Assembly (NCBI GenBank): GCA_944329445.1
Contig: CALVIH010000012.1
Location: 1 to 34,608 of the forward strand
Direction of reading: 5' to 3'
DNA from: an uncultured Bacilli bacterium
GTDB taxonomy: Bacteria > Bacillota_I > Bacilli_A > RF39 > UBA660
Length of the DNA: 34,608 nucleotides
Shown: in pieces, positions 1,922 to 15,009 of the stretch
Position numbering within the stretch: the first letter of the stretch is position 1
How the letters are laid out: each line of letters starts with the position of its first letter
Program-made: the position numbers and the translations under genes
Notes under the pieces: model-generated
Seen by the model: only the letters and a program-made list of their open reading frames with translations
The model's database searches: none
What the model was told of the DNA's origin: nothing

Positions 1922-2309
1922 GTTGGTATTATTTATTGTTTATCTTTTTTTAGTTAATGAAAATGATGTTAGTCCTGCTATTTCTTATGAAAATGAATAT
2001 GATGGTAATGTGTCTGATATAAGTGTTTCTTTTTCTAACGGAATAAATAGTAATAACATGAAAGAAGTGTTTGATAGATATAGTTCTGAATATTATGTTT
2101 ATGAAATTAAGGTAAAAGATAAAAATGTTGCTGTTTCTTGTAACGACATTGATTCTTGTTTAAAAAAGGTTTACGAATCAGAGGATAAATTATTTGAAAT
2201 ATCATTTGCGGCAACCGGTTTTAACGTTCAAGAAATATCAATGCTAGCGTATACGGATAGTATAGTTCCGTTTTTAAACGAAAACAATTTAACTTATAAA
2301 GTTAATTAA
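1902..2309 (+). CDS. Small exported or membrane-anchored protein, unknown function
   Basis: A 135-residue protein with a Lys-Lys N-terminus and a hydrophobic stretch over residues 4-17 that reads as a signal peptide or membrane anchor, followed by an extracytoplasmic domain with two cysteines (in a VSCNDIDSCL segment) that could form a disulfide. A GTG at 1893 is in frame, but I chose the ATG at 1902 because the GTG belongs to the ribosome site GGTGATT, a spacing seen for many genes here. The start lies within the 3' arm of a terminator-like hairpin. The gene converges on the mnmL-mnmM fusion and their stop codons overlap by 4 bases. No family recognised. Confidence 0.6.
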   Translation: MKKYLFLLVLFIVYLFLVNENDVSPAISYENEYDGNVSDISVSFSNGINSNNMKEVFDRYSSEYYVYEIKVKDKNVAVSCNDIDSCLKKVYESEDKLFEISFAATGFNVQEISMLAYTDSIVPFLNENNLTYKVN

Positions 2310-3766
2310 CCGAGTTGTTTATAGCTAGGGTTAATTTCTATTAAATAAGGAGCATTTTTATTAGTGGTGTTATGGTAAGTTAAATATTTAATGTTATTTT
2401 TATTTAAATAATCTATTATTTCTATACTTTCTTTTTTTCCTTCTTCATGAGGATAGCATGTAACTAGTATTATTCCTTTTTTGTTAAGCATTTTAATGTT
2501 TTTTTTGATTGCGTTTAATGTAGAGATATGATTGGTTGTTATACTTTTATCTCCACCTGGTAGATAACCTAAATTAAATAGGACTAAACTTATTTTATTT
2601 TTATATTTTTTCAAAACAATATCTATGTTTTCATGACTATCATTAATTAAAGTTACGTTATCCACAGCGTTTTTATCTAATAATTTTTTAGTGTTTTCAA
2701 TCGCTTTTTTTTGAACATCAAAAGAAAATACTTTTTTTGCTAATTTAGATAACATAAGGGTATCGTTTCCATTACCGCACGTTGCATCAACAACTATGTC
2801 ACCTTTTTTAATAAACTCATTACATATTAAGTTTACCCGGTTAAGAATACTTTTGTTAAATCCTTGATAAGTTCCTCTTCGTTTAAGTTCTTTATCAACG
2901 TCGTTTAGAACGCTTACTTTTTTTAACGTCCAAACCGGTGCGATTAGATCTTCTTTTGCACCATCACCAGTTAATCGATGAATAACTATTTTTTCATTTA
3001 ATTCTTCGATTTGGTCACAAACTATGTTTACGTATTCTTCTTTTGTTAATAGGTGGAACGTTGTTTTTTTATAATAATTTTCAAGAGGGGTGTTTTTAAG
3101 TACGTGAAGCATATGTATTTTAATCCCTTGAATATCTAGTTTATTTAGGTGTTTAATGGTATCCATCATCATTTCATGGGTTTCATAAGGAAGCCCATTT
3201 ATTATGTGTACAACTACGTTGATGTCTTTTTCTCTAAGTCTTTTAACACACGCATCAAAGCAGTTTAAATCATGACCTCGGTTTATTAATTTTAAGGTTT
3301 CGTTATGCATACTTTGAAGACCTAATTCTATGGTTAAAAAAGTTCTTTTGTTTAGATCAGACAAATATGCTAAACATTCATCGCTAATTGCATCAGGCCT
3401 TGTCCCAATGTTTATTCCAACAACGTTTGGAAAAGTTAGTACCTTTTCAAATTTCTCTTTTAAAACTTTTACGGGTGCATACGTGTTTGTGTTAGCTTGG
3501 AAATAAGCAATGTATTTTGTATCTGGCCACTTATTATTTAGCTTTTGCTTTATTTTATTAAATTGGGTTAGTAAATCATCATTTTTATCTCCTGCAAAAT
3601 CTCCTGATCCTTTCGCGGAACAAAAAATACAACCACTACCATTTTTAAAGTTAGGGCATGAAAATCCTCCGTTTAGACTAACTTTAAATACCCGACATCC
3701 AAATCTTTTGGTTAAATCATAATTTAAAGTATGATAACGTTTATTATCTAAACTATATTTAAACAT
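2306..3766 (-). CDS. mnmLM: MnmL-MnmM fusion: radical SAM enzyme plus tRNA wobble-uridine methyltransferase
   Basis: A 486-residue fusion of two proteins that are usually separate neighbours (YtqA and YtqB in Bacillus). Residues 1 to about 300 are the YtqA/MnmL radical SAM family (TIGR01212), with the cluster-binding cysteines at 37, 46 and 49 (C-x8-C-x2-C; the CP-N...GCIFCS signature). Residues about 305-486 are the YtqB/MnmM methyltransferase, with the SAM-binding DATCGNGNDT at 327-336 and the family signature NLGYLPGGDK at 398-407. MnmL and MnmM together convert cmnm5(s2)U to mnm5(s2)U at position 34 of tRNAs reading split codon boxes, without MnmC. The ATG is preceded by GGTGAT. It is transcribed divergently from the leucine T-box and ends 4 bases inside the convergent gene. 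Fusions of this pair are known, so both activities are probably retained. Confidence 0.9.
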   Translation of the reverse strand: MFKYSLDNKRYHTLNYDLTKRFGCRVFKVSLNGGFSCPNFKNGSGCIFCSAKGSGDFAGDKNDDLLTQFNKIKQKLNNKWPDTKYIAYFQANTNTYAPVKVLKEKFEKVLTFPNVVGINIGTRPDAISDECLAYLSDLNKRTFLTIELGLQSMHNETLKLINRGHDLNCFDACVKRLREKDINVVVHIINGLPYETHEMMMDTIKHLNKLDIQGIKIHMLHVLKNTPLENYYKKTTFHLLTKEEYVNIVCDQIEELNEKIVIHRLTGDGAKEDLIAPVWTLKKVSVLNDVDKELKRRGTYQGFNKSILNRVNLICNEFIKKGDIVVDATCGNGNDTLMLSKLAKKVFSFDVQKKAIENTKKLLDKNAVDNVTLINDSHENIDIVLKKYKNKISLVLFNLGYLPGGDKSITTNHISTLNAIKKNIKMLNKKGIILVTCYPHEEGKKESIEIIDYLNKNNIKYLTYHNTTNKNAPYLIEINPSYKQLG

Positions 3767-4435: not shown

Positions 4436-6856
4436 ATGGAATATAATTTTAAAGAAATAGAGAAAAAATGGCAGAAATATTGGGAAGATAACAAGACTTT
4501 TAAAACTGACGTATGGGATTTTTCAAAACCTAAGTTTTATGCACTTGATATGTTTCCTTATCCATCAGGAGTAGGCCTTCATGCCGGGCATCCAGAAGGT
4601 TATACGGCAACTGATATTGTATCTCGTATGAAAAGGATGCAAGGATATAACGTTCTTCATCCAATGGGATATGATTCGTTTGGCCTTCCAGCGGAGCAGT
4701 ATGCGGTTCAAACTGGTAATCACCCAAGTGGTTTTACCGAAAAGAACATTGAGTACTTTACTAGCCAATTAAAGGAACTTGGTTTTGATTACGACTGGGA
4801 CAGGGTAATAGCAACCTCAGATCCAAAGTATTATAAATGGACCCAGTGGATCTTTAAACAATTATACAAAGATGGTTATGCAAAATACGTTGATATGCCA
4901 GTTAATTGGTGTGAGGAGCTTGGTACCGTTTTATCAAATGACGAAGTAATAGATGGTAAGTCAGAGCGTGGCGGATATCCAGTAGTAAGAAAGAACATGA
5001 AACAACTATGCATTGACCAGCCAAAGTTTGCAGAGAGACTACTTGAAGGTTTAGAAGAAATAGATTGGCCAGAATCAACTAAAGAAATGCAAAGAAACTG
5101 GATAGGCAAGTCAACTGGTGTTGAAGTTGATTTCGAAATAGTAGGCGGGGGAAAGTTTTCTATTTACACAACTTGTATTGAAACCATTTATGGTATTACC
5201 TTCATGGTTTTAGCACCTGACGGCTCTTTAGTTAAAGAACTAATGCCTAGGGTAGAAAACAAAGAAGAAGTAAATGCTTACATAGAAGAAACATTAAAAA
5301 AATCAGACATGGATAGGACCGAACTTAACAAAGGAAAAAGTGGTTGTGAGTTAAAAGGCATTAAAGCGATAAACCCGGTTAATAAAAAAGAAGTTCCGGT
5401 GTTTATTGGAGACTTTGTTTTAGCAAACTACGGAACAGGTGCGGTTATGGCAGTACCTTCTCATGACCAAAGGGATTTTGAGTATGCTGTAGTACATAAC
5501 ATTCCAATGATTCAAGTAATAGATGGAAGGGATGTAAGTGAAGCAGCTTTTGAAAAACAAGATTATTTAGGTAAGGGATGCAAGCTTATTAACTCAGAAG
5601 AATTTACCGGTTTAACCGTTGAAGAAGCAAAGGAAAAAATAACCGATAAGTTAGTTAAAATGGGTGTTGCAAGAAAGACCACTAATTATAAGTTTAGAGA
5701 GTGGATATTCGCTCGTCAAAGATACTGGGGAGAGCCAGTACCAATCGTTCATATGGAAGATGGTACGGATTACTTACTTCCTGATGATGAATTACCACTT
5801 GTATTACCAGAATTAAAAGATTATAAAGGACATAATGGTAAGGCTCCTTTAGAAAATGCAACAGAATGGAAGCACTATGAAAAAGATGGTAAAAAAGGTA
5901 TTCGTGAAACTTCTACGATGCCTGGTTCGGCAGGATCTAGTTGGTACTTCTTAAGATACATTGACCCTCATAATACACATGAGTTTGCGAACCAAGAGCT
6001 ATTAAAGCACTGGATGCCAGTAGACTTATACATCGGTGGTCCAGAACATGCCGTTGGACATTTAATGTATTCTAGAATTTGGAATAATTATCTTTATGAC
6101 AAAGGATTATCTCCGGTTAAAGAACCATTTAAAAAGTTGGTTCACCAAGGTATGATACTAGGTGAAAACGGAATTAAAATGGGGAAACGCTATCCTGAAT
6201 TCGTTGTTAACCCAAGTGACATAGTAAGAAAATATGGAGCGGATACACTAAGATTATACGAAATGTTTATGGGACCATTGGAAGCCTCAAAACCTTGGAG
6301 TACGTCAGGTGTTGAAGGTGCTAAAAAATTCTTGGATAGGGTTTGGAGATTATTTACCGGAGAAAATAAAAGTTTTGATGGTGAGAATAAAAACCTTGAA
6401 AGAATATACCATGAAACTGTCAAAAACGTTACGAACGATTATGAAAAATTATCATTTAATACGGCAATAAGCCACTTAATGGTATTTGTTAACGCGGTTT
6501 ATAAAGAAAGCGTATTTCCAAGGGAATATGCGGAAGGATTTATAAAGTTATTAAACCCAATATGTCCGCATATTACTGAGGAATTATGGAGCATTTTGGG
6601 GCATGATAAAACGATTGCTTATGAACCATGGCCAAAATACGATGAGGCTAAACTTGTTCAAAATGAGTTTGATATAGCCGTTCAAGTAAATGGTAAGTTA
6701 AGGGGCACTATTACTATATCGGTAGATGATACCGAAGATGTTATTAAAGAAAAAGCGTTATCTAACGAAAACGTTAAAAGACATACTGATGGTAAAGAGA
6801 TAGTAAAAGTAATCGTAATTAAAAATAAGATAGTAAACGTAGTGGTAAAAGGATAA
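4436..6856 (+). CDS. leuS: Leucyl-tRNA synthetase
   Basis: An 806-residue class I synthetase that charges tRNA-Leu with leucine, of normal bacterial length. The HIGH-type motif is in FPYPSGVGLHAGH (residues 40-52), the CP1 hinge WIGKSTG is at 222-228, the CP1 editing domain spans about 225-420, GSAGSSWYFLRY is near 497-508, and the C-terminal tRNA-binding region follows. Two signatures differ from the usual: the KMSKS loop reads KMGKR (581-585), and the threonine-rich editing peptide, normally TTRPDT, reads TTCIET (245-250). The editing-site aspartates in HDQRD (343-347) are kept. The gene is under the leucine T-box and its ribosome site lies inside the end of the preceding gene. A terminator overlaps its stop. 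Confidence 0.97.
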   Translation: MEYNFKEIEKKWQKYWEDNKTFKTDVWDFSKPKFYALDMFPYPSGVGLHAGHPEGYTATDIVSRMKRMQGYNVLHPMGYDSFGLPAEQYAVQTGNHPSGFTEKNIEYFTSQLKELGFDYDWDRVIATSDPKYYKWTQWIFKQLYKDGYAKYVDMPVNWCEELGTVLSNDEVIDGKSERGGYPVVRKNMKQLCIDQPKFAERLLEGLEEIDWPESTKEMQRNWIGKSTGVEVDFEIVGGGKFSIYTTCIETIYGITFMVLAPDGSLVKELMPRVENKEEVNAYIEETLKKSDMDRTELNKGKSGCELKGIKAINPVNKKEVPVFIGDFVLANYGTGAVMAVPSHDQRDFEYAVVHNIPMIQVIDGRDVSEAAFEKQDYLGKGCKLINSEEFTGLTVEEAKEKITDKLVKMGVARKTTNYKFREWIFARQRYWGEPVPIVHMEDGTDYLLPDDELPLVLPELKDYKGHNGKAPLENATEWKHYEKDGKKGIRETSTMPGSAGSSWYFLRYIDPHNTHEFANQELLKHWMPVDLYIGGPEHAVGHLMYSRIWNNYLYDKGLSPVKEPFKKLVHQGMILGENGIKMGKRYPEFVVNPSDIVRKYGADTLRLYEMFMGPLEASKPWSTSGVEGAKKFLDRVWRLFTGENKSFDGENKNLERIYHETVKNVTNDYEKLSFNTAISHLMVFVNAVYKESVFPREYAEGFIKLLNPICPHITEELWSILGHDKTIAYEPWPKYDEAKLVQNEFDIAVQVNGKLRGTITISVDDTEDVIKEKALSNENVKRHTDGKEIVKVIVIKNKIVNVVVKG

Positions 6857-6964: not shown

Positions 6965-7411
6965 TTGGAAGCAAATATTATGCAAGTTATATCCAGCGTT
7001 CCTCTTTTTTTTACAGCAATAAATCAGCATAATTTTAAAGGTGATATAATAGATTTTATAAAATTATTAATATTATCTTCTATCCCTTTTGTAGGAGTAA
7101 CGTCTATAGAAGTTGCTATTCAAAGTATTAATGGTGCAAAATTATTAAAAATATGTAAATTAATTAATGATAAAACAGGTGAAAAGATAGATTTTTATGA
7201 TGCAAATATAACTGTTTCTGGGTTTCAAGATAGCGCTAAAGAAACTAACGTAGCTTTTGAATTTGATAATTTTCATATTAAAGAATGTATTAAAGATGAT
7301 GTTTATAGATGTGGTCTTTATTATTCAGATGGTGGATTTACAGACTTGACTAATGAAGTAAGTGATATTATAAAAGTACATGGTAGAAAAGATAATAAGT
7401 ATTTTAAGTAA
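6965..7411 (+). CDS. Unrecognised protein with one hydrophobic segment; 5' end doubtful
   Basis: The open frame gives 148 residues from a TTG, with a hydrophobic stretch about residues 30-48 (LLILSSIPFVGVTSIEVAI) and a polar C-terminal domain. No family recognised. The TTG has no visible ribosome site. The frame stays open upstream to a stop at 6893 and encodes a plausible protein tail (KRSIYKLYKTKADEYR), while an ATG at 6906 sits in another frame just before a run of seven A (6909-6915). One extra A would join that ATG to this frame and give about 168 residues. So the gene may be frameshifted, phase-variable or mis-assembled at the A run. A good terminator 10 bases after the stop favours a once-functional gene. 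Confidence 0.5.
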   Translation: MEANIMQVISSVPLFFTAINQHNFKGDIIDFIKLLILSSIPFVGVTSIEVAIQSINGAKLLKICKLINDKTGEKIDFYDANITVSGFQDSAKETNVAFEFDNFHIKECIKDDVYRCGLYYSDGGFTDLTNEVSDIIKVHGRKDNKYFK

Positions 7412-7476: not shown

Positions 7477-7623
7477 ATGTACATTGATGAAAAAGATAGT
7501 ATCGACAATTGCGAGATAATAATAAAAGAAAAGTTTCAAAGAAAAAGTAAAGAGGATATCCGCTCTAAACCTAATGAACATGTTAAATCATTAAAATCTA
7601 AAGCACAAAGACCACAACGCTGA
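7477..7623 (+). pseudogene. Short ORF, likely remnant of a broken gene
   Basis: The frame encodes 48 residues (starts MYIDEKDSIDNCEIII) and ends at a TGA. The neighbouring frame continues in similar style past it (NAEEIESININKFRKE, to a stop near 7667), as expected after a frameshift. There is no ribosome site. Bases 7535-7559 inside it recur 6.6 kb away at 14153-14177. No family recognised. Confidence 0.35.
7535..7559 (+). repeat. Left copy of a 25-base direct repeat flanking the SANT operon
   Basis: TTCAAAGAAAAAGTAAAGAGGATAT-type sequence that matches 14153-14177 at 24 of 25 positions, in the same orientation. Both copies can encode QRKSKEDI. The tract is A-rich, which raises the chance of coincidence. 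Confidence 0.5.
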
Positions 7624-7718: not shown

Positions 7719-7868
7719 ATGAGAAATGAAACGATAACAAATTGTCACCAGTTGAAATTGAAAGCTTAAGATGGTAAGTATCGTATATCTGATGTAGTTA
7801 ACATTGAAGGTGCGTTTAGGATAATAGAGTTAATTTCAAGTAAAAAAGCAAGGAATGTTTTCTACTAA
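7719..7868 (+). pseudogene. Decayed fragment of a BRO/DinD-type phage antirepressor domain
   Basis: One frame reads MRNETITNCHQLKLKA, an in-frame TAA at 7767-7769, then DGKYRISDVVNIEGAFRIIE followed by LISSKKARNVFY and a stop at 7866. This matches the usual wording of BRO-N/DinD-type proteins (TNCHQLKL, then an adenine-rich 'DGK.R.tDv..tE..FRiiqsIPSpKAepFk.WLA'). The interrupting stop and the loss of everything after the SKKA motif show a dead fragment. Such antirepressors are carried mostly by phages and mobile elements, so it is evidence that a mobile element once occupied this spot. Identification is by motif only. Confidence 0.65.
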
Positions 7869-7897
7869 ATGACTTTTAATAAAAAATATCAAAAAAG

Positions 7898-7906
7898 TGT
7901 TATAAT
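7898..7906 (+). promoter_or_regulatory. Extended -10 promoter of the SANT operon
   Basis: TGTTATAAT: an extended -10 (TG at 7898-7899) with a perfect TATAAT at 7901-7906. No good -35 is seen, which extended -10 promoters tolerate. Transcription would start near 7912, about 40 bases before the first SANT gene. Confidence 0.65.
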
Positions 7907-7934
7907 AATAATTAAGTTTTTCTTTGAAAGATTT

Positions 7935-7942
7935 GGGGGGGG
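7935..7942 (+). repeat. G8 homopolymer at the ribosome-binding site of the first SANT gene
   Basis: Eight consecutive G end 9 bases before the ATG at 7952 and take the place of the Shine-Dalgarno sequence. No other ribosome site is visible. Slippage would change both the strength and the spacing of this site. Confidence 0.8.
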
Positions 7943-7951
7943 TAAATATAT

Positions 7952-10030
7952 ATGAATCAAAGAATCTGGACTAAAGAGGAAGATGATTATATAAAAGATA
8001 ATTTTGGAAACAAAACTTTTAGTGAAATGGCAGAACATATTGGTTGTTCAATAATTACAGTTCAGAAAAGAGCGAGATTTCTAGGCTTTGATTATGAGAA
8101 AAAAACACTAAGAAGATGGAATGAAGAAGAAATAGAATTATTAAAAATAATGGCACCAAAGTATTTGAATAAAACTATAGCAAGAAAATTGAATCGTTCT
8201 ATTAATGAAGTAAATAAAAAGGCTAGAGAATTAGGAGTTGAATTAATCTTTAAAAGACCAGTGTGGAAAAAATGGAAGTTGAAATTTTTAAAAGAAAATA
8301 TAAATAGCCTATCATTATCTCAAATTCAAAAAGAATTAGAAGTAAACTATTATCAAATCATGGATAAACTAGATGAACTTGGTATAGAATATAACAATAA
8401 TTCTTGGAGCGAAGAAGAGATAAATATTTTAACCGAATTATCTGGTAAAGTATATATAAGAGAGATTGCTAAAGTTTTAAATAGATCTGAAGGCGCTATT
8501 ATATCTAAAGCAGATAAATTAGGATTAGATTATATTACTTTAAAAAAAGTTTATACAGAAAAAGAATTAAAATACATAAAAGATAATTGGGGTATTATTG
8601 CGGTAACTGATATAGCAAGAAATTTAGGAGTAAGCAGAATAATGGTTCAAACTCAAGCAGATAAAATGAATCTTCCAAAATTAGGTAATAATCCATATAG
8701 AAAATGGACTGAAGAAAAATTAATAGAATTAAAAAGATTATCTTCCAAGAAATCTATAACTGAATTAGCTAAACACTTTAATACGACCAACGATGCGATT
8801 ATAACTATAGCTCATAGAAACGGAATATATTTAAATGATGATAAGATTCATTGGACTGAAGAAGATAATGCGGTTTTAAGAGAATTATCAAAGAATTTAG
8901 ATTTATCAGAAATAGCAACCAAAATGAATAGAACTACTTCTGCTGTTCGTTTACAAGCAGAAAGACAAAATATTAAAATTATACCGAATAAAAAAAATAC
9001 TTTAAGTGTATGGACTGAAGAAAATAATAAAGAATTAAAAAAGTTAGTTAGAGAAGGTAAATCTTTGTTAGAAATTTGTAATATAATGAATAAAAAAGAT
9101 GGTATAGTGTTAAAAAAAGCCAGGGAATTAAATTTAGATATAAAAACAGAAGAACAAAGACAATGGTCTGAAGAAGAAATTGCTAGATTAAAAGAGTTAT
9201 CTAAAACACAAAAAATAAGTGAATTAGTTAAAGAATTAAACCGTACGAGTAGCTCAATAAAAGCAATGGCTAAGAAATTAGGAATTAATATAATGAGTGA
9301 TAGAAAAAGTTGGACTGAAGAAGAATATAAACTTCTTGAAAAATTGACTATGATTGAGAAAAAAACTCCTAAAGAAATAGCAGAGATACTTGGAAGAACT
9401 GAAGATGCAATTATTATTAAAATAAATAGAAGAGGGTTGCAAATCCAAACAAATGACAAAAGATTTTGGACAAAGGAAGAAGAAACTTTATTATCTGATT
9501 TATGGGGAACAGAATCATTTGAAACAATCGCAAAGAAATTAAACAGAACCGTATCATCAATTAAAAATAAGGCATTTCTTTTAGGCTTAGGATCTGCAAT
9601 AGAAAGTAATTATAATGGTTTAACAATCAAAGATATTAGTGATTTGTTGGGTGTAAACATAAATACAGTAAGTGTAAACTGGATCGGGTTAGGATTAAAA
9701 TATAAAGTTCAAAAAATATCAAAATCAAGGAGTTATAGATATGTAGAAATAAAAGATTTATATGAGTTTTTAGAGAGAAATCAAAATATATGGGACAGTA
9801 GGAATTTAGAAAAAAATATTTTGGGAACAGAACCAGAATGGTTGAAAGAAAAAAGAAAGCGAGATATAAAACAGAATCCAGATATTGAACGACCAAATTT
9901 GACTAAGCAGCAGTTAATACTTGCAAGAAAGTTCTTTTTAGAATTAAAAGAAGAAACAAAAGAACAAGAAGAATCAACTATAGATGAACAAGGCCCACAA
10001 TTATCTTTAAAAAGAGGTAAAAGAAGATGA
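7952..10030 (+). CDS. Multi-SANT/Myb-repeat DNA-binding protein A (11 repeats + HTH)
   Basis: A 692-residue protein made of tandem units of about 50 residues with the pattern [RK].WT.EE...L..L......eIA..LnRs..aI..KA..LG, that is, three helices with a conserved Trp at the start as in Myb/SANT domains. I count 11 units over residues 1 to about 553, beginning near 1, 54, 104, 150, 200, 249, 299 and then about every 50. Unit 3 (WKKW...LKENINSL) and unit 5 (YIKDNWG...IARNL) are divergent. Residues about 554-620 form a different helix-turn-helix (LTIKDISDLLGVN...), followed by a conserved 'EPEWLKEKRKRDI' block and a charged tail. Its TGA overlaps the ATG of the next gene by 4 bases. Multiple DNA contacts are expected; target and function are unknown. 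Confidence 0.85.
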   Translation: MNQRIWTKEEDDYIKDNFGNKTFSEMAEHIGCSIITVQKRARFLGFDYEKKTLRRWNEEEIELLKIMAPKYLNKTIARKLNRSINEVNKKARELGVELIFKRPVWKKWKLKFLKENINSLSLSQIQKELEVNYYQIMDKLDELGIEYNNNSWSEEEINILTELSGKVYIREIAKVLNRSEGAIISKADKLGLDYITLKKVYTEKELKYIKDNWGIIAVTDIARNLGVSRIMVQTQADKMNLPKLGNNPYRKWTEEKLIELKRLSSKKSITELAKHFNTTNDAIITIAHRNGIYLNDDKIHWTEEDNAVLRELSKNLDLSEIATKMNRTTSAVRLQAERQNIKIIPNKKNTLSVWTEENNKELKKLVREGKSLLEICNIMNKKDGIVLKKARELNLDIKTEEQRQWSEEEIARLKELSKTQKISELVKELNRTSSSIKAMAKKLGINIMSDRKSWTEEEYKLLEKLTMIEKKTPKEIAEILGRTEDAIIIKINRRGLQIQTNDKRFWTKEEETLLSDLWGTESFETIAKKLNRTVSSIKNKAFLLGLGSAIESNYNGLTIKDISDLLGVNINTVSVNWIGLGLKYKVQKISKSRSYRYVEIKDLYEFLERNQNIWDSRNLEKNILGTEPEWLKEKRKRDIKQNPDIERPNLTKQQLILARKFFLELKEETKEQEESTIDEQGPQLSLKRGKRR

Positions 10031-12390
10031 AGCAAAAATTTTATTTGACTGAAGAAATGGTAGATGAATTAAAAAATATATGGAATACTAAACCATTGTA
10101 TAAGATTGCTATAGATTTCCATACAACAACAGAAACAATAAGAAAAAAAGCAAATGAGATTGGTCTGGAAGAATATAAAAGTAATCGTTGGACAAAAGAA
10201 GAGGAGGAACTTCTTCGTGAGTATTCAAAAAAATATGTTACAAAGACAATAGCAAGAAAATTAGGAAGAAGTTATTTAGCTGTTCAAAAGAAGGCCGTTA
10301 AGTTAGGTATTGAATTACATAGTACACCTGATCCATGGAAAAAATGGATGATAGATTATTTAAAAGATAATATTAATAAGCAACCTATAGGTAAAATAGA
10401 ATCAATGATCGGATTAAGTTATCACTCAATATTAACTAAGTGTAAAGAATTGGGAATTGATTATGTTAAAGAAAACTGGACGGATGATGAAATAAAAATA
10501 TTAAGAGAATATGCTAATAAGTGTCATTATACTGAGTTAACAAAAGTTTTGCCGAATAGAACGATTGGTGCAATTGCTGCAAAAGCTTATGAATTAGGAA
10601 TTGAAACAATATCTACATATACAAAGTTAGATGATAAACAAATCCAATATATAAAAGATAATTGGGGAGATATGCCTGCTACAGAAATAGCAAGAAACTT
10701 AAAAATTAGTATTGGTATTTTAAATAGATATAAAAAGGAATTAAATCTTCCAAATACAGGACAGCAAAAAAAATGGACTGATGAGAAAATTAGTGAATTA
10801 AGAAAAGACGCTAAAATGAAAACTAGGAATGAACTAGCTAAGAAGTACAAAACATCACCTGCACAAATCTCTGCAGTTGCTAGAAAAAATAATATTAAAC
10901 TGACAGATTCAAAACTTGTATGGACTGATGAATTAGTTAGTCAATTACAAAAATTAATAGACCAAGGATTAGGAATAAGTGAAATTTCAAAAGAAATGGA
11001 TATGAAAGCATCATCAATTAGACAGCAAATTAGAAAAATGAAGGGTGATGAGTTTATCAATCCAAGTTCAAAAAGTAAAAGATGGATGGATGACGAAGTT
11101 AATAAATTAATTAGTTTATCTAAAATATATACAACTGAAGAAATAGCTGAAATACTTAATAAAACTGAAAGACAAATATATAACAAAGCAGTAAAACTTG
11201 GAATTCAAATAAATAGAAATAAACAAAACTTATGGACTGATAAAGATACTCAAACACTAATTAATTTACATGATAATTATGAACTTCACATTATTTCAAA
11301 AATTATGGGGAAATCTGAGGCAATAATTCGTGAAAAAGCACAAGTTTTAGGATTAAAATTAAAATTTAAAGAAAGAACAGCTTGGTCTTTAGATGAAGAA
11401 CAATTATTAAAGGAATATGCAAAAAATTATACGATAAATGAAATTGCATATATTCTAGGACGTACTACTTCGTCAGTTAATGCAAAATTAAGATATATGG
11501 GAATTAAAGCTGTTCAAAGTTCGAGGTTTTGGACAAAAGAAGAGGAAGAAGAATTAAAAAGACTATCAGATGATTTTTCAATAGAAGAAATTGCTAAAAA
11601 AATGAATAAATCTTATGATTCTATTGTTGCAAAATCATATCAATTGGGAATAAGAACAAAAAATTATTCTAATAAAAGATGGACAAAGGAAGAAGAAACA
11701 GAATTATTGGAGTTACTAACTTCCTATTCATCATTTGAAGTTGCAGAAATATTAAACAGAAGTGAAGAAGCGATAGCTTTAAAAGCGATTAATTTAGGGT
11801 ATAATATTGATTCAAAGCATAGAAAATGGACAGAGGAAGAAGAAACTATGTTATCTGATTTATGGGGAACAGAATCAATAGAAAATATTGCTAAAAAGTT
11901 AAACAGAACTGTTTCTTCGATTGTAAATAGAGTATATGTTCTTGGGCTTGGATCTCAAATTGAAAATAATTATGATGGACTTAGAATTCAAGATATTTCT
12001 GATATATTTCAAGTTAATAGAAATGTTATTTTAACGTCATGGGTAAGTTTAGGATTAAAATTAAGTTTTAGAAAAAGATCAAATTATAGTGTATATTCTT
12101 ATGTTCAAATAAAAGATTTATATGAATTTTTAGAGAAAAATCAAAATATATGGGATAGTAGAAATTTAGAAAAAAATCTTTTAGGAATTGAACCTGAATG
12201 GTTAAAGGAAAAAAGAAAACGAGATATGGGACAAAATTCAGGTGTTGAACGACTAAATTTAACAAAACAGCAATTAATACTAGATAAAAGTTATTATTTG
12301 GATTCAGAAATGTCAAAAGAGAATACGGAGCTTAGTGAAAATACGATTACTCCTAGATTAATTAAAATAAAAGATAATAAAAAAAGGTGA
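10027..12390 (+). CDS. Multi-SANT/Myb-repeat DNA-binding protein B (13 repeats + HTH)
   Basis: A 787-residue paralogue of protein A with the same plan. I count 13 Myb/SANT-like units up to about residue 645, then the helix-turn-helix module (LRIQDISDIFQVN...), the 'EPEWLKEKRKRDM' block and a basic tail. Units 1-7 correspond one-to-one with units 1-7 of A, including the odd unit 3 (PWKKWMIDYLKDNINKQ) and unit 5 (YIKDNWGDMPATEIARNL). The extra two units lie in the middle-to-late part. The last unit is nearly identical to that of A even at DNA level (27 identical bases at 9491-9517 and 11851-11877). It starts on an ATGA overlap with A, which implies translational coupling. A typical bacterial regulator carries one or two such domains, so 13 is exceptional. 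Confidence 0.85.
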   Translation: MKQKFYLTEEMVDELKNIWNTKPLYKIAIDFHTTTETIRKKANEIGLEEYKSNRWTKEEEELLREYSKKYVTKTIARKLGRSYLAVQKKAVKLGIELHSTPDPWKKWMIDYLKDNINKQPIGKIESMIGLSYHSILTKCKELGIDYVKENWTDDEIKILREYANKCHYTELTKVLPNRTIGAIAAKAYELGIETISTYTKLDDKQIQYIKDNWGDMPATEIARNLKISIGILNRYKKELNLPNTGQQKKWTDEKISELRKDAKMKTRNELAKKYKTSPAQISAVARKNNIKLTDSKLVWTDELVSQLQKLIDQGLGISEISKEMDMKASSIRQQIRKMKGDEFINPSSKSKRWMDDEVNKLISLSKIYTTEEIAEILNKTERQIYNKAVKLGIQINRNKQNLWTDKDTQTLINLHDNYELHIISKIMGKSEAIIREKAQVLGLKLKFKERTAWSLDEEQLLKEYAKNYTINEIAYILGRTTSSVNAKLRYMGIKAVQSSRFWTKEEEEELKRLSDDFSIEEIAKKMNKSYDSIVAKSYQLGIRTKNYSNKRWTKEEETELLELLTSYSSFEVAEILNRSEEAIALKAINLGYNIDSKHRKWTEEEETMLSDLWGTESIENIAKKLNRTVSSIVNRVYVLGLGSQIENNYDGLRIQDISDIFQVNRNVILTSWVSLGLKLSFRKRSNYSVYSYVQIKDLYEFLEKNQNIWDSRNLEKNLLGIEPEWLKEKRKRDMGQNSGVERLNLTKQQLILDKSYYLDSEMSKENTELSENTITPRLIKIKDNKKR

Positions 12391-12395
12391 TTACT

Positions 12396-13457
12396 ATGAA
12401 AGGAACAAAGCGGGAATTTACAGAAGAGGAAATACAATATATAATTAATAATTGGGGAAAAGAGTCTGCTCATAGCATGAAGAAAAAGTTTAATTGCTCA
12501 TGGTATGCAGTTTGTAAGGTAGCAGAAAAGCATGGATTAGAAATACCTAAATCTAATGAGTGGACAAACGAAGAGATTGAAACTTTAAAATTATTATCTG
12601 ATAAATATCATTATTCTGAAATAGCAAAAATTATGAATAAAACAGAAAATGCCATTTATATAAAAGCAAGAAGATTAGGAATAACTTTAATACAAGATAG
12701 AAGAAAATGGACAAAAGAGGAAGAAACCATGTTATCTGATTTATGGGGAACTAAATCTATTGAAGTTATAGCAAAAACTATGAAGAGAACCGTTTTTTCA
12801 TTAAAGGTTAAAGCAGTAAGAATGGGGCTTGGACCTATGGTTAGAAATAATTATGATCTTATTACAGTATCTGATATGTGTGATTTGCTTAACGTTACTC
12901 GTGATAGAATTACAAATACATGGATTAATTTAGGGTTAAATTTAAAAAAGAAAAGGTTAACTAATAATATGTCATATTATGTAATTACATGGAATGATTT
13001 GATGGATTTTTTAGAGAAAAATCAAAATGAATGGGATTCAAGATGTGTTGAAAAAAATATGCTTGGTACTGAACCAGACTGGTTAAAAGAAAAAAGAAAA
13101 CGAGATATTGAAGAAAATCCTCTTTGGTATCGTAAGTGGACAGAAGATGAAAAAAAGCAGGTAGAAAATTTATTTAAATCTGGTAAGGATTATTTAGGAA
13201 TTGCTGAAATTATAAATAGAAGTGAATGGTCAGTTGCTAATTTGCTTAGGAATATGGGTTATAGTTATATGCTTCCACAATTTTGGAAGGGTAAGGAATT
13301 AAAATATTTAAAAGAAAATTATAAAGATATGACTTATTCAGAAATCGCAGAGGAACTTGGAAGAACAACTAAAGCAATTGGTGCTAAAGCCGAAGAACTG
13401 GGTTATCAAAAAAGACTTATAAAATCAAAAAATAATGGTGGTGAAAGTAATGGCTAG
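12396..13457 (+). CDS. Multi-SANT/Myb-repeat DNA-binding protein C (5 repeats + internal HTH)
   Basis: A 353-residue short relative of A and B. Three Myb/SANT-like units (residues about 1-155; the third reads KWTKEEETMLSDLWGTKSIE, matching the last unit of A and B) precede the shared helix-turn-helix (ITVSDMCDLLNVT...) and the 'EPDWLKEKRKRDI' block. Then, unlike A and B, two more units follow (YRKWTEDEKKQVENLFKSG and FWKGKELKYLKENYKDMTYS). I place the start at the ATG at 12396: an in-frame GTG at 12387 is part of the ribosome site AAAGGTGATT. The gene is coupled to B by close spacing, and its end overlaps the sigma-factor gene by 8 bases. Confidence 0.85.
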   Translation: MKGTKREFTEEEIQYIINNWGKESAHSMKKKFNCSWYAVCKVAEKHGLEIPKSNEWTNEEIETLKLLSDKYHYSEIAKIMNKTENAIYIKARRLGITLIQDRRKWTKEEETMLSDLWGTKSIEVIAKTMKRTVFSLKVKAVRMGLGPMVRNNYDLITVSDMCDLLNVTRDRITNTWINLGLNLKKKRLTNNMSYYVITWNDLMDFLEKNQNEWDSRCVEKNMLGTEPDWLKEKRKRDIEENPLWYRKWTEDEKKQVENLFKSGKDYLGIAEIINRSEWSVANLLRNMGYSYMLPQFWKGKELKYLKENYKDMTYSEIAEELGRTTKAIGAKAEELGYQKRLIKSKNNGGESNG

Positions 13458-14097
13458 GAAATTATCATTAGATGAAACAAAAAAATGTTTAAAAGCATGG
13501 CGAGAACTTGCTGATAAAGAGGCATTGGAAGTTTTAATGATCAGCAATGGTGGATTAGTTGGGTACATTGCTAAAAAATATTTAGGAAAAGGTTTAACTT
13601 TTGAAGAATTACAGTCAGCTGGTAACGAAGGTTTATTAAATTCAATTAATAAATTCGATTATAATGAAAGAGCAATTGAAGGATTTAGTACTTATATTTC
13701 TACAGCAATTGAAAATCAAATTAGGATGGAATTAAGAAAATATAACAAACATAGTCATGTACTAAGTTTTGATCAACCAATAGGTCAAAATAAAGATGGA
13801 GATGAACTTAAAATCGAAGACATTGTTGGTACTGATGCCGATCAATTAATAGATGATATAATATCCGAAATGAAAATAGATATTGTTCGGGATGCCCTAC
13901 AATGTTTAACATCTAGAGAACAACAGATCATTTTATTACGATACGGACTTGATGATGTACATAGAAAAACGCAAGATGAAGTGGCAAAGATGTTTGGATG
14001 TTCCCAGACTACAATTGCAAAACAAGAACAAAGAGCGTTGACAAAAATGAGACATCCTAGAAATACAAGAAAATTAAAAGATTTTATAGAAGAATAA
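13450..14097 (+). CDS. Sigma-70-family RNA polymerase sigma factor
   Basis: A 215-residue sigma factor. Region 2 is residues about 30-95 (LVGYIAKKYLGKGLTFEELQ, NEGLLNSINKFDY, then FSTYISTAIENQIRMELRKY, the core-binding and -10-recognising part). Region 4 is about 140-205 (LTSREQQIILLRYGLDD...TQDEVAKMFGCSQTTIAKQE, a -35-binding helix-turn-helix). There is no region 1.1, and region 3 appears short, similar in size to sporulation or general-stress sigma factors. The in-frame GTG/ATG codons upstream are inside gene C. I chose the ATG at 13450, preceded by GGTGGTGA. It is the last gene of the multi-SANT operon, overlapping C by 8 bases, so the SANT proteins and this sigma probably work in one regulatory system. 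No anti-sigma gene is adjacent. Confidence 0.85.
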   Translation: MARKLSLDETKKCLKAWRELADKEALEVLMISNGGLVGYIAKKYLGKGLTFEELQSAGNEGLLNSINKFDYNERAIEGFSTYISTAIENQIRMELRKYNKHSHVLSFDQPIGQNKDGDELKIEDIVGTDADQLIDDIISEMKIDIVRDALQCLTSREQQIILLRYGLDDVHRKTQDEVAKMFGCSQTTIAKQEQRALTKMRHPRNTRKLKDFIEE

Positions 14098-14152
14098 AAA
14101 GCAGAAAAAAATCAAAAGAGGTTTAAATAAACAAAAGTCAAAAAAGTAATAA

Positions 14153-14177
14153 TTCAAAGAAAAAGTAAAGAAGATAT
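14153..14177 (+). repeat. Right copy of the 25-base direct repeat flanking the SANT operon
   Basis: Matches 7535-7559 at 24 of 25 bases in direct orientation and lies 56 bases after the sigma-factor stop, so the two copies bracket the whole SANT/sigma operon. Confidence 0.5.
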
Positions 14178-14245: not shown

Positions 14246-14286
14246 ATGTAAAGAAGATTTATCCATAATAGAAATAGGTGATTAAC

Positions 14287-15009
14287 TTGAACATAAATGG
14301 ATTAGATATTAATTATATAGATTTTGGTAATAAGAAAAAAGATGCAATTGTTTTGCTTCATGGATGGGGACAAAACATTCAAATGATGCAAATGCTAGGT
14401 GAACCATTTAAAAAGGATTATCGAATCATTATATTAGACTTTCCTGGGTTTGGATTGAGTCCTGAGCCAAAAAAGGTAATGGACGTAAATGATTATACCG
14501 TTATGGTTGAAGAGCTATTAAAAAAACTAGGAGTTAAAAATCCTATATTAATTGGTCATTCGTTTGGTGGTAGGGTATCAGTTAAGTATGCATCAAGAAA
14601 CGAAGTGAAAAAGGTTATTCTTTTATCTCCGGCTTTAAAAGGTCATGATAAAAAAGGATTGAAAACCAAAGTTTTAAAATTTTTAAAAACGGTTCCTGGA
14701 ATAAAGAACTTAGAGAGTTGGGCTAAAAACCACATAGGTTCTCGGGATTATAAGGCCGCTAGTCCAATTATGAAACAGGTTTTGGTAAAAACCGTTAACG
14801 AGGATTTATCAGGGGATGCAAAAAAAATAAAAGCTCCAACCATTTTGATATATGGAGATTTGGATAGTGAGGTTCCAGAAGAGGATACCAAGGAGTATGA
14901 AAGACTAATACCAGATTGTGGACTTATTCTTTATGAAGGATGTACACACTATGCATACTTGGAAAGATTACAACAAACGATAAATATAATTAGAAATTTT
15001 ATAAAGTAA
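14287..15009 (+). CDS. Alpha/beta hydrolase
   Basis: A 240-residue soluble alpha/beta-hydrolase fold enzyme. The catalytic triad is visible: nucleophile Ser92 in GHSFGG, Asp193 in YGDLDSEVP and His221 in CTHYAYLE. The oxyanion-hole motif LLHGWG is at residues 23-28. The substrate cannot be read from sequence; relatives include esterases and C-C hydrolases. I chose the TTG at 14287 because the in-frame GTG at 14278 belongs to the ribosome site AGGTGATTAAC. It is the first gene of an operon with the membrane-anchored MurF-like ligase (13 bases downstream) and Ddl, so a job near peptidoglycan precursors is possible but not shown. Confidence 0.85.
   Translation: MNINGLDINYIDFGNKKKDAIVLLHGWGQNIQMMQMLGEPFKKDYRIIILDFPGFGLSPEPKKVMDVNDYTVMVEELLKKLGVKNPILIGHSFGGRVSVKYASRNEVKKVILLSPALKGHDKKGLKTKVLKFLKTVPGIKNLESWAKNHIGSRDYKAASPIMKQVLVKTVNEDLSGDAKKIKAPTILIYGDLDSEVPEEDTKEYERLIPDCGLILYEGCTHYAYLERLQQTINIIRNFIK

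Follow-up and report, generated by a model that had tools for sequence, protein, structure and literature searches.

A sigma factor encoded with long arrays of GcrA/Myb-like helix-turn-helix units in an operon of uncultured Bacilli

Described relatives and the A-B-C-S operon

GcrA of Alphaproteobacteria is an established cofactor of sigma70, and its contact with sigma is made through a separate domain (PMC7403470). Cbp1, the CRISPR-repeat-binding protein of Sulfolobales, places its three tandem helix-turn-helix (HTH) domains side by side on a single CRISPR repeat (PMC10883916). The annotation of D5 from phage T5, a phrog_323 member, describes a DNA-binding protein that replication and late transcription require; D5 is 255 aa long and contains approximately three weak units. 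Priestia, Sphingobium, and Pseudomonas plasmid and Bacillus phage KLEB27-3 multi-HTH proteins carry 3–8 copies of the same unit as the proteins described below; the initial annotation's premise of one or two units per bacterial protein was thus too low. To our knowledge, bacterial tandem HTH regulators beyond a handful of units are undescribed, and the literature searched contained nothing relevant on tandem Myb/HTH arrays paired with sigma factors.

We analysed a 34,608-bp stretch of DNA from an uncultured gut Bacilli genome (the window), in which four overlapping ORFs, A, B, C, and S, form one gap-free run between leuS (4436–6856) and an alpha/beta-hydrolase gene (14278–15009). The overlaps A/B, B/C, and C/S are 4, 4, and 23 bp, respectively, and the ORFs are those initially annotated as three overlapping array genes followed by a fourth, sigma-70-family gene.

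7898–7942, + strand: likely promoter of A, predicted by consensus match only, with an extended -10 TGTTATAAT (7898–7906) and a ribosome-binding G-run 5' of A
7952–10030, + strand: gene A, 692 aa; 11 HTH units (residues 6–546), then a winged HTH (wHTH) module and a helical tail
9608–9880, + strand: wHTH (HTH_17-like) and conserved NQN-WDSR...EPEWL motif region of A
10027–12390, + strand: gene B, 787 aa; 13 HTH units (residues 8–641), then a wHTH module and a helical tail
11962–12240, + strand: wHTH module of B, same as in A
12387–13457, + strand: gene C, 356 aa; 3 HTH units, a wHTH module, and 2 HTH units
12843–13121, + strand: wHTH module of C, same as in A
13435–14097, + strand: gene S, 220 aa; sigma-70-family factor, SigE/SigK-related and specific to the A-B-C-S operon family

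The components of A-B-C-S come from known families, and the operon is unusual in its array length and sigma partnership. The array unit resembles the N-terminal DNA-binding domain of GcrA, but GcrA has one such domain and an array protein up to 13 units. The GcrA profile PF07750 scores above its cut-off in A, B, and C over the GcrA N-terminal part; the match covers profile positions 2–66 of 155, and the C-terminal sigma-interacting domain is absent in all three proteins. The GcrA equivalog model NF050816 reached at most 24.8 bits (cut-off 280). Cbp1 shares the tandem HTH arrangement but is archaeal, has only three HTH domains, and comes with no sigma; its NCBIfam match to the array proteins was weak (E=0.0027). 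PHROG 323 was matched by A, B, and C at E=2.7e-89, 7e-109, and 2e-46, respectively, with part of the score due to repeated unit matches; unlike D5, A and B combine 11–13 units with a wHTH module, and a sigma gene shares their operon. The Priestia plasmid protein, with the order U-U-U-wHTH-U, is close to C in layout, and no sigma gene lies next to its gene in the Priestia regions read. A Priestia plasmid gene annotated as sigma-70 (L223, 5058–5951) encodes a C-type U-U-U-wHTH-U protein and is likely misannotated. The same HTH unit also occurs two to seven times in putative homing endonucleases of viral contigs (L217, L219, L220, and L222), which from our own reading of their sequences we take to be LAGLIDADG- or GIY-YIG-like.

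HTH units, wHTH module, and sigma factors

An iterated HMM of the unit (~42 aa, spaced at ~50 aa) detected 11, 13, and 5 copies in A, B, and C, respectively, those of C being arranged as 3+2 around the extra module, and each protein also has one divergent HTH. These counts are identical to the initial ones. A second model, trained on plasmid and phage units only, gave 12, 12, and 5 units at E<1e-3, with a background of ~0.005 units per shuffled protein; its training units were aligned by the first HMM, and it is therefore independent in sequence, not in alignment. The 12th unit in A is the wHTH, and one weak B unit just misses the cut-off. Units 2–6, the last unit, and the wHTH of A and B are reciprocal-best matches; the one-to-one register initially claimed for units 1–7 is not clear at units 1 and 7.

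The units had been called Myb/SANT-like, a loose name; true membership of Myb/SANT is unsupported. Pfam scores were 50 bits for Myb_DNA-bind_6 and 38–41 bits for Myb_DNA-binding, and the Myb profiles PF00249 and PF13921 exceed the curated cut-off in A and B, PF00249 being just above it in C. However, the units also match GcrA, HTH_23, and Sigma70_r4_2, and the GcrA and Sigma70_r4_2 models exceed their gathering cut-offs. Myb/SANT repeats have regularly spaced tryptophans, usually three per repeat. As initially noted, Trp at unit position 1 is conserved in nearly all units; position 13 is Trp in a minority, and the second and third conserved Myb tryptophans are absent across the units of A, B, and C. 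Because the units match several HTH families and keep only the first Myb Trp, 'GcrA/Myb-like HTH unit' is the safer name. The array reading depended on agreement between units and HTH profiles, which was found; together with the unit fold, and with the role of related units as DNA-binding modules of phage homing endonucleases and T5 D5, these family matches support the prediction that the arrays of A, B, and C are of DNA-binding type.

The AlphaFold2 model of C (21-row alignment; mean pLDDT 80, pTM 0.44) contains five trihelical units and a winged HTH of the order H-H-E-E-H (residues 158–211), followed by a conserved helical motif. In that of B (7 alignment rows; pLDDT 69, pTM 0.25), thirteen trihelical units are followed by the wHTH seen in C and a tail of helices. 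Confidence in these modelled unit folds is fair, and the relative placement of the units is not predicted. The extra HTH module initially reported as common to A, B, and C is present in all three and appears as a winged HTH in the models. Fold matches in the PDB were weak (none at E<0.001), with chains of SelB, SNAPc, Myb, and Cbp1 among them; unlike these, the viral matches were significant, and they include D5 proteins and one GcrA-like protein.

S contains sigma-70 regions 2 (PF04542, 36 bits) and 4 (PF04545, 49 bits). Its best-matching models are those of the sporulation sigmas SigE (149.6 bits) and SigK (145.3 bits), yet both scores are far below the equivalog cut-offs (339 and 252, respectively). 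It is at most 39% identical to the sigma factors of relatives without the operon. In G436 and G658, the operon ends in sigmas of 372 and 375 aa that are RpoD-like (regions 2, 3, and 4, with region 1.2 additionally detected in the 372-aa sigma) and ~28% identical to S. These were rejected as housekeeping rpoD, since G436 and G658 each have a separate rpoD linked to dnaG. That the last operon slot is held by two clearly different sigma types is the strongest sign that arrays and sigma cooperate. Since an RpoD-like sigma replaces S at two loci, the array-sigma link appears, from gene content, to have arisen or been renewed more than once.

Distribution, transfer, and array history

To find relatives, the last unit was aligned together with the wHTH (the core), and this alignment served as the query. 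Among 84,980 species genomes, it retrieved 20 loci from uncultured Bacilli and a single distant match from Metabacillus; ~20 further operon-related loci all fall within one family of uncultured Bacilli. The distribution is patchy, with the core in 17 of 386 genomes of the window's family (16 of 150 genera); a phylum sample of 392 genomes held only two carriers, both in that family. Strong S matches (≥389 bits) were found in nine genomes, eight of which also carry the core, and one (G767) has S alone. Observed layouts are A-B-C-S, A-B-S, A-S, A-C-S, B-C-S, C-S, C alone, S alone, and A alone, as well as C-A-B-sigma372 and A-B-sigma375, and intact four-gene copies of the conserved operon are present in several genera. 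A sigma gene (S or RpoD-like) stands at the end of 11 of the 13 distinct loci having A or B, so that the linkage to a sigma gene noted in the window recurs in other genomes, with two sigma types. Sixteen distinct loci are C-only, six with S and ten with no sigma gene. The C-only genes at L036, L037, and L038 share an upstream gene (465 aa) and a downstream gene family, and C alone has apparently been inherited vertically there. No shared cargo adjoins the operon across loci, save an ADP-ribosylglycohydrolase gene just 3' of the sigma gene at two of them (L021, 13513–14289; L031, 4535–5317).

The flanking genes differ at nearly every operon locus. Two features lie at this site in the window:

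7851–14170: stretch missing at the same site in congener G014 (~117 bp between flanking matches), bounding the acquired segment
7723–7865: remnant resembling a BRO-type antirepressor gene, by reading of its translation

The gap between leuS and the hydrolase gene is ~230 bp in congeners G005 and G016. A 128-bp remnant common to G014 and the window resembles the end of a BRO-type gene, presumably so on our own reading of the translation. Different congeners hold different small cargo in this gap; G015 (L106) has a longer ORF of the BRO-like remnant, and a 148-aa ORF without a family match in the window (6965–7411) belongs to the variable cargo 3' of leuS. A 25-bp direct repeat (one mismatch, TTCAAAGAAAAAGTAAAGARGATAT) lies on both sides of the operon (7535–7559 and 14153–14177), with a 12-bp inverted copy of its core at 7917–7928; as nothing comparable occurs at other loci, it was rejected as a general insertion signature. 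Contamination of the assembled genome is unlikely, given that the contig itself carries leuS and the hydrolase gene, whose matches in congeners reach 97% and 93%, respectively.

Between the window and three genomes of other genera (G562, G621, and G654), dS was 0.43–0.92 for the operon genes and 1.46–2.41 for rpoD and leuS, and other genome pairs (e.g., G397 with the rest) showed no dS excess of this kind. C and S distances co-vary (rho 0.70, 21 pairs that are not independent, so that p-values have no literal meaning), and neither co-varies with leuS; against rpoD distances, again in non-independent pairs, S showed no correlation and C a weak negative one. Since operon-gene dS lies below that of rpoD and leuS between genera, these comparisons clearly indicate horizontal acquisition of the window's copy and of its near relatives' operon, which is not proof for every locus. 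Low synonymous divergence goes with discordance from the species markers, and a mobile character of the operon is supported by the variable flanks, the empty site in a congener, and the dS excess in housekeeping genes. The operon contains no recombinase gene, and no constant ends or shared flanking DNA were found across loci that would mark an integrative element. A phage or plasmid vehicle was also rejected; viral contigs contain no relative of the sigma, and phages and plasmids only distant array relatives.

Gene remnants at five loci show that A-B-C-S is the ancestral order and that arrays have disappeared in situ. At L022, 31 aa of C persist between A and S; at L021, B and S are separated by 12 aa of C. 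L020 has a chimera of B unit 1 and C, interrupted by a stop and a frameshift, and an A remnant lies 5' of B at L025 and a B remnant 5' of C at L029. A and B are often lost where C and S remain. Exchange between arrays is also visible, with B-type sequence in A unit 4 and A-type sequence at the B end of L021, and with A's first unit as the first unit of B at L027. In complete main-lineage orthologues, the unit number is fixed at 11/13/5; a second lineage has a 9-unit-class A and a 10- or 13-unit B, and these counts include the divergent HTH only where the model scored it. The modular growth initially proposed is not seen as an ongoing process, the observed recombination only shrinking or swapping arrays.

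All four genes are under purifying selection (dN/dS 0.08–0.40 in the least diverged pairs). The residues with which helix 3 begins differ between units and are kept across orthologues (position 27, 0.26 between units vs 0.90 within a unit; position 29, 0.10 vs 0.73), the pattern expected if each unit reads a fixed DNA stretch. This suggests that the arrays are kept as readers of one fixed site and are not fast-changing, and the unit comparison gave no sign of diversifying selection on the recognition helices. B units 7–11 are the least conserved.

Proposed function and alternatives

We modestly favour the explanation that A-B-C-S is a portable transcription-control operon whose array proteins bind extended operators and act with the dedicated sigma S. 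A, B, and C would be related to phage D5-like and GcrA-like regulators and bind DNA sequence-specifically, the tandem units of each occupying one extended operator. The common wHTH and C-terminal motif may tie the three proteins to a shared partner or site, and S would bring RNA polymerase to promoters beside the array operators. We infer DNA binding from the units, the existence of long operators from the arrays, and array-sigma cooperation from the repeated coupling of arrays to a terminal sigma gene at loci with A or B (11 of 13) and from C-S distances that co-vary with each other and not with leuS. GcrA, whose DNA-binding domain is unit-like, is itself a sigma cofactor (PMC7403470), which also argues for cooperation. 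Against this explanation count the frequent loss of A and B where C and S stay, and the missing GcrA sigma-interacting domain; co-location in one operon does not prove array-sigma contact. The parts are separable, given the ten of 16 C-only loci without a sigma gene and S without arrays in G767. Upstream of the operon, no conserved operator or sigma promoter was found across loci, only extended -10 TATAAT motifs, which at several other loci resemble that of the window and precede the first gene; with no DNA common to these upstream regions, no self-operator is visible.

The length of the arrays would also suit a silencing or architectural module that coats particular DNA, such as a resident or invading element, and keeps it free of spurious transcription, the effect that archaeal Cbp1 has on CRISPR repeats, with the sigma only driving a counterpart or its own regulon. 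A patchy, transferred, and decaying distribution is typical of accessory and defence genes, a Cbp1 chain is among the PDB fold matches of C, the Cbp1 NCBIfam model gives its weak match, and the three tandem HTH domains of Cbp1 are aligned along its repeat (PMC10883916). We nevertheless consider such a module rather unlikely; it leaves the recurrent sigma coupling unexplained, PADLOC families fit only as generic HTH or sigma matches, none over the whole protein, and the flanks of the operon loci share no defence neighbour. On the same results, a known anti-phage defence system was rejected, and the coating or defence role raised initially is unsupported.

It is unlikely, too, that the operon is what remains of a phage or plasmid regulatory cassette, with C-like proteins from Bacillales phages or plasmids and no role for the host in which it is a passenger. 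U-wHTH-U relatives do occur in Bacillus phage KLEB27-3 and Priestia plasmids, decay is seen at L020, L021, L022, L025, and L029, and the BRO-like gene remnant adjoins the operon in the window, but purifying selection acts on all four genes, intact four-gene copies persist in several genera, and no structural, integrase, or replication genes lie alongside the operon. Very improbable, in our judgement, is that the arrays serve as helical protein or RNA scaffolds, such as an anti-sigma brake that binds the sigma. A sigma and its anti-sigma are commonly encoded on one transcript, and SelB winged-helix domains in complex with RNA are among the PDB fold matches; against this, the units match DNA-binding HTH families throughout, they serve as DNA-binding modules in homing endonucleases, and C is present without any sigma gene at ten loci.

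As a portable transcription-control operon, A-B-C-S looks like a switch for genes, one that reads DNA addresses of unusual length. Long HTH arrays combined with a sigma factor in one transferable unit would represent a new layout for promoter control, and the operon offers a directly testable case of an alternative sigma gaining long-address specificity. More tentatively, A and B may be one-dimensional DNA readers in which 11–13 units each read a few bases in register, an address of several tens of bp thereby delivering a private sigma; arrays and sigma would have been paired on two or more occasions, with sigma types unrelated to each other, and the arrays re-cut by unit-to-unit recombination. 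If the units read DNA in register, the arrays would be a bacterial counterpart of TALE and zinc-finger arrays, built from Myb/GcrA-type modules, and natural unit swaps could help in working out a code.

Two further observations concern the same genome and family. On the minus strand of the window (2306–3766), a 486-aa protein joins the radical-SAM enzyme MnmL/YtqA to the methyltransferase MnmM. Unusually long sigmas occur in the same bacterial family at L172 (G000:C5; 742 aa) and L177 (G658:C2; 630 aa), both with a large extension at the C terminus.
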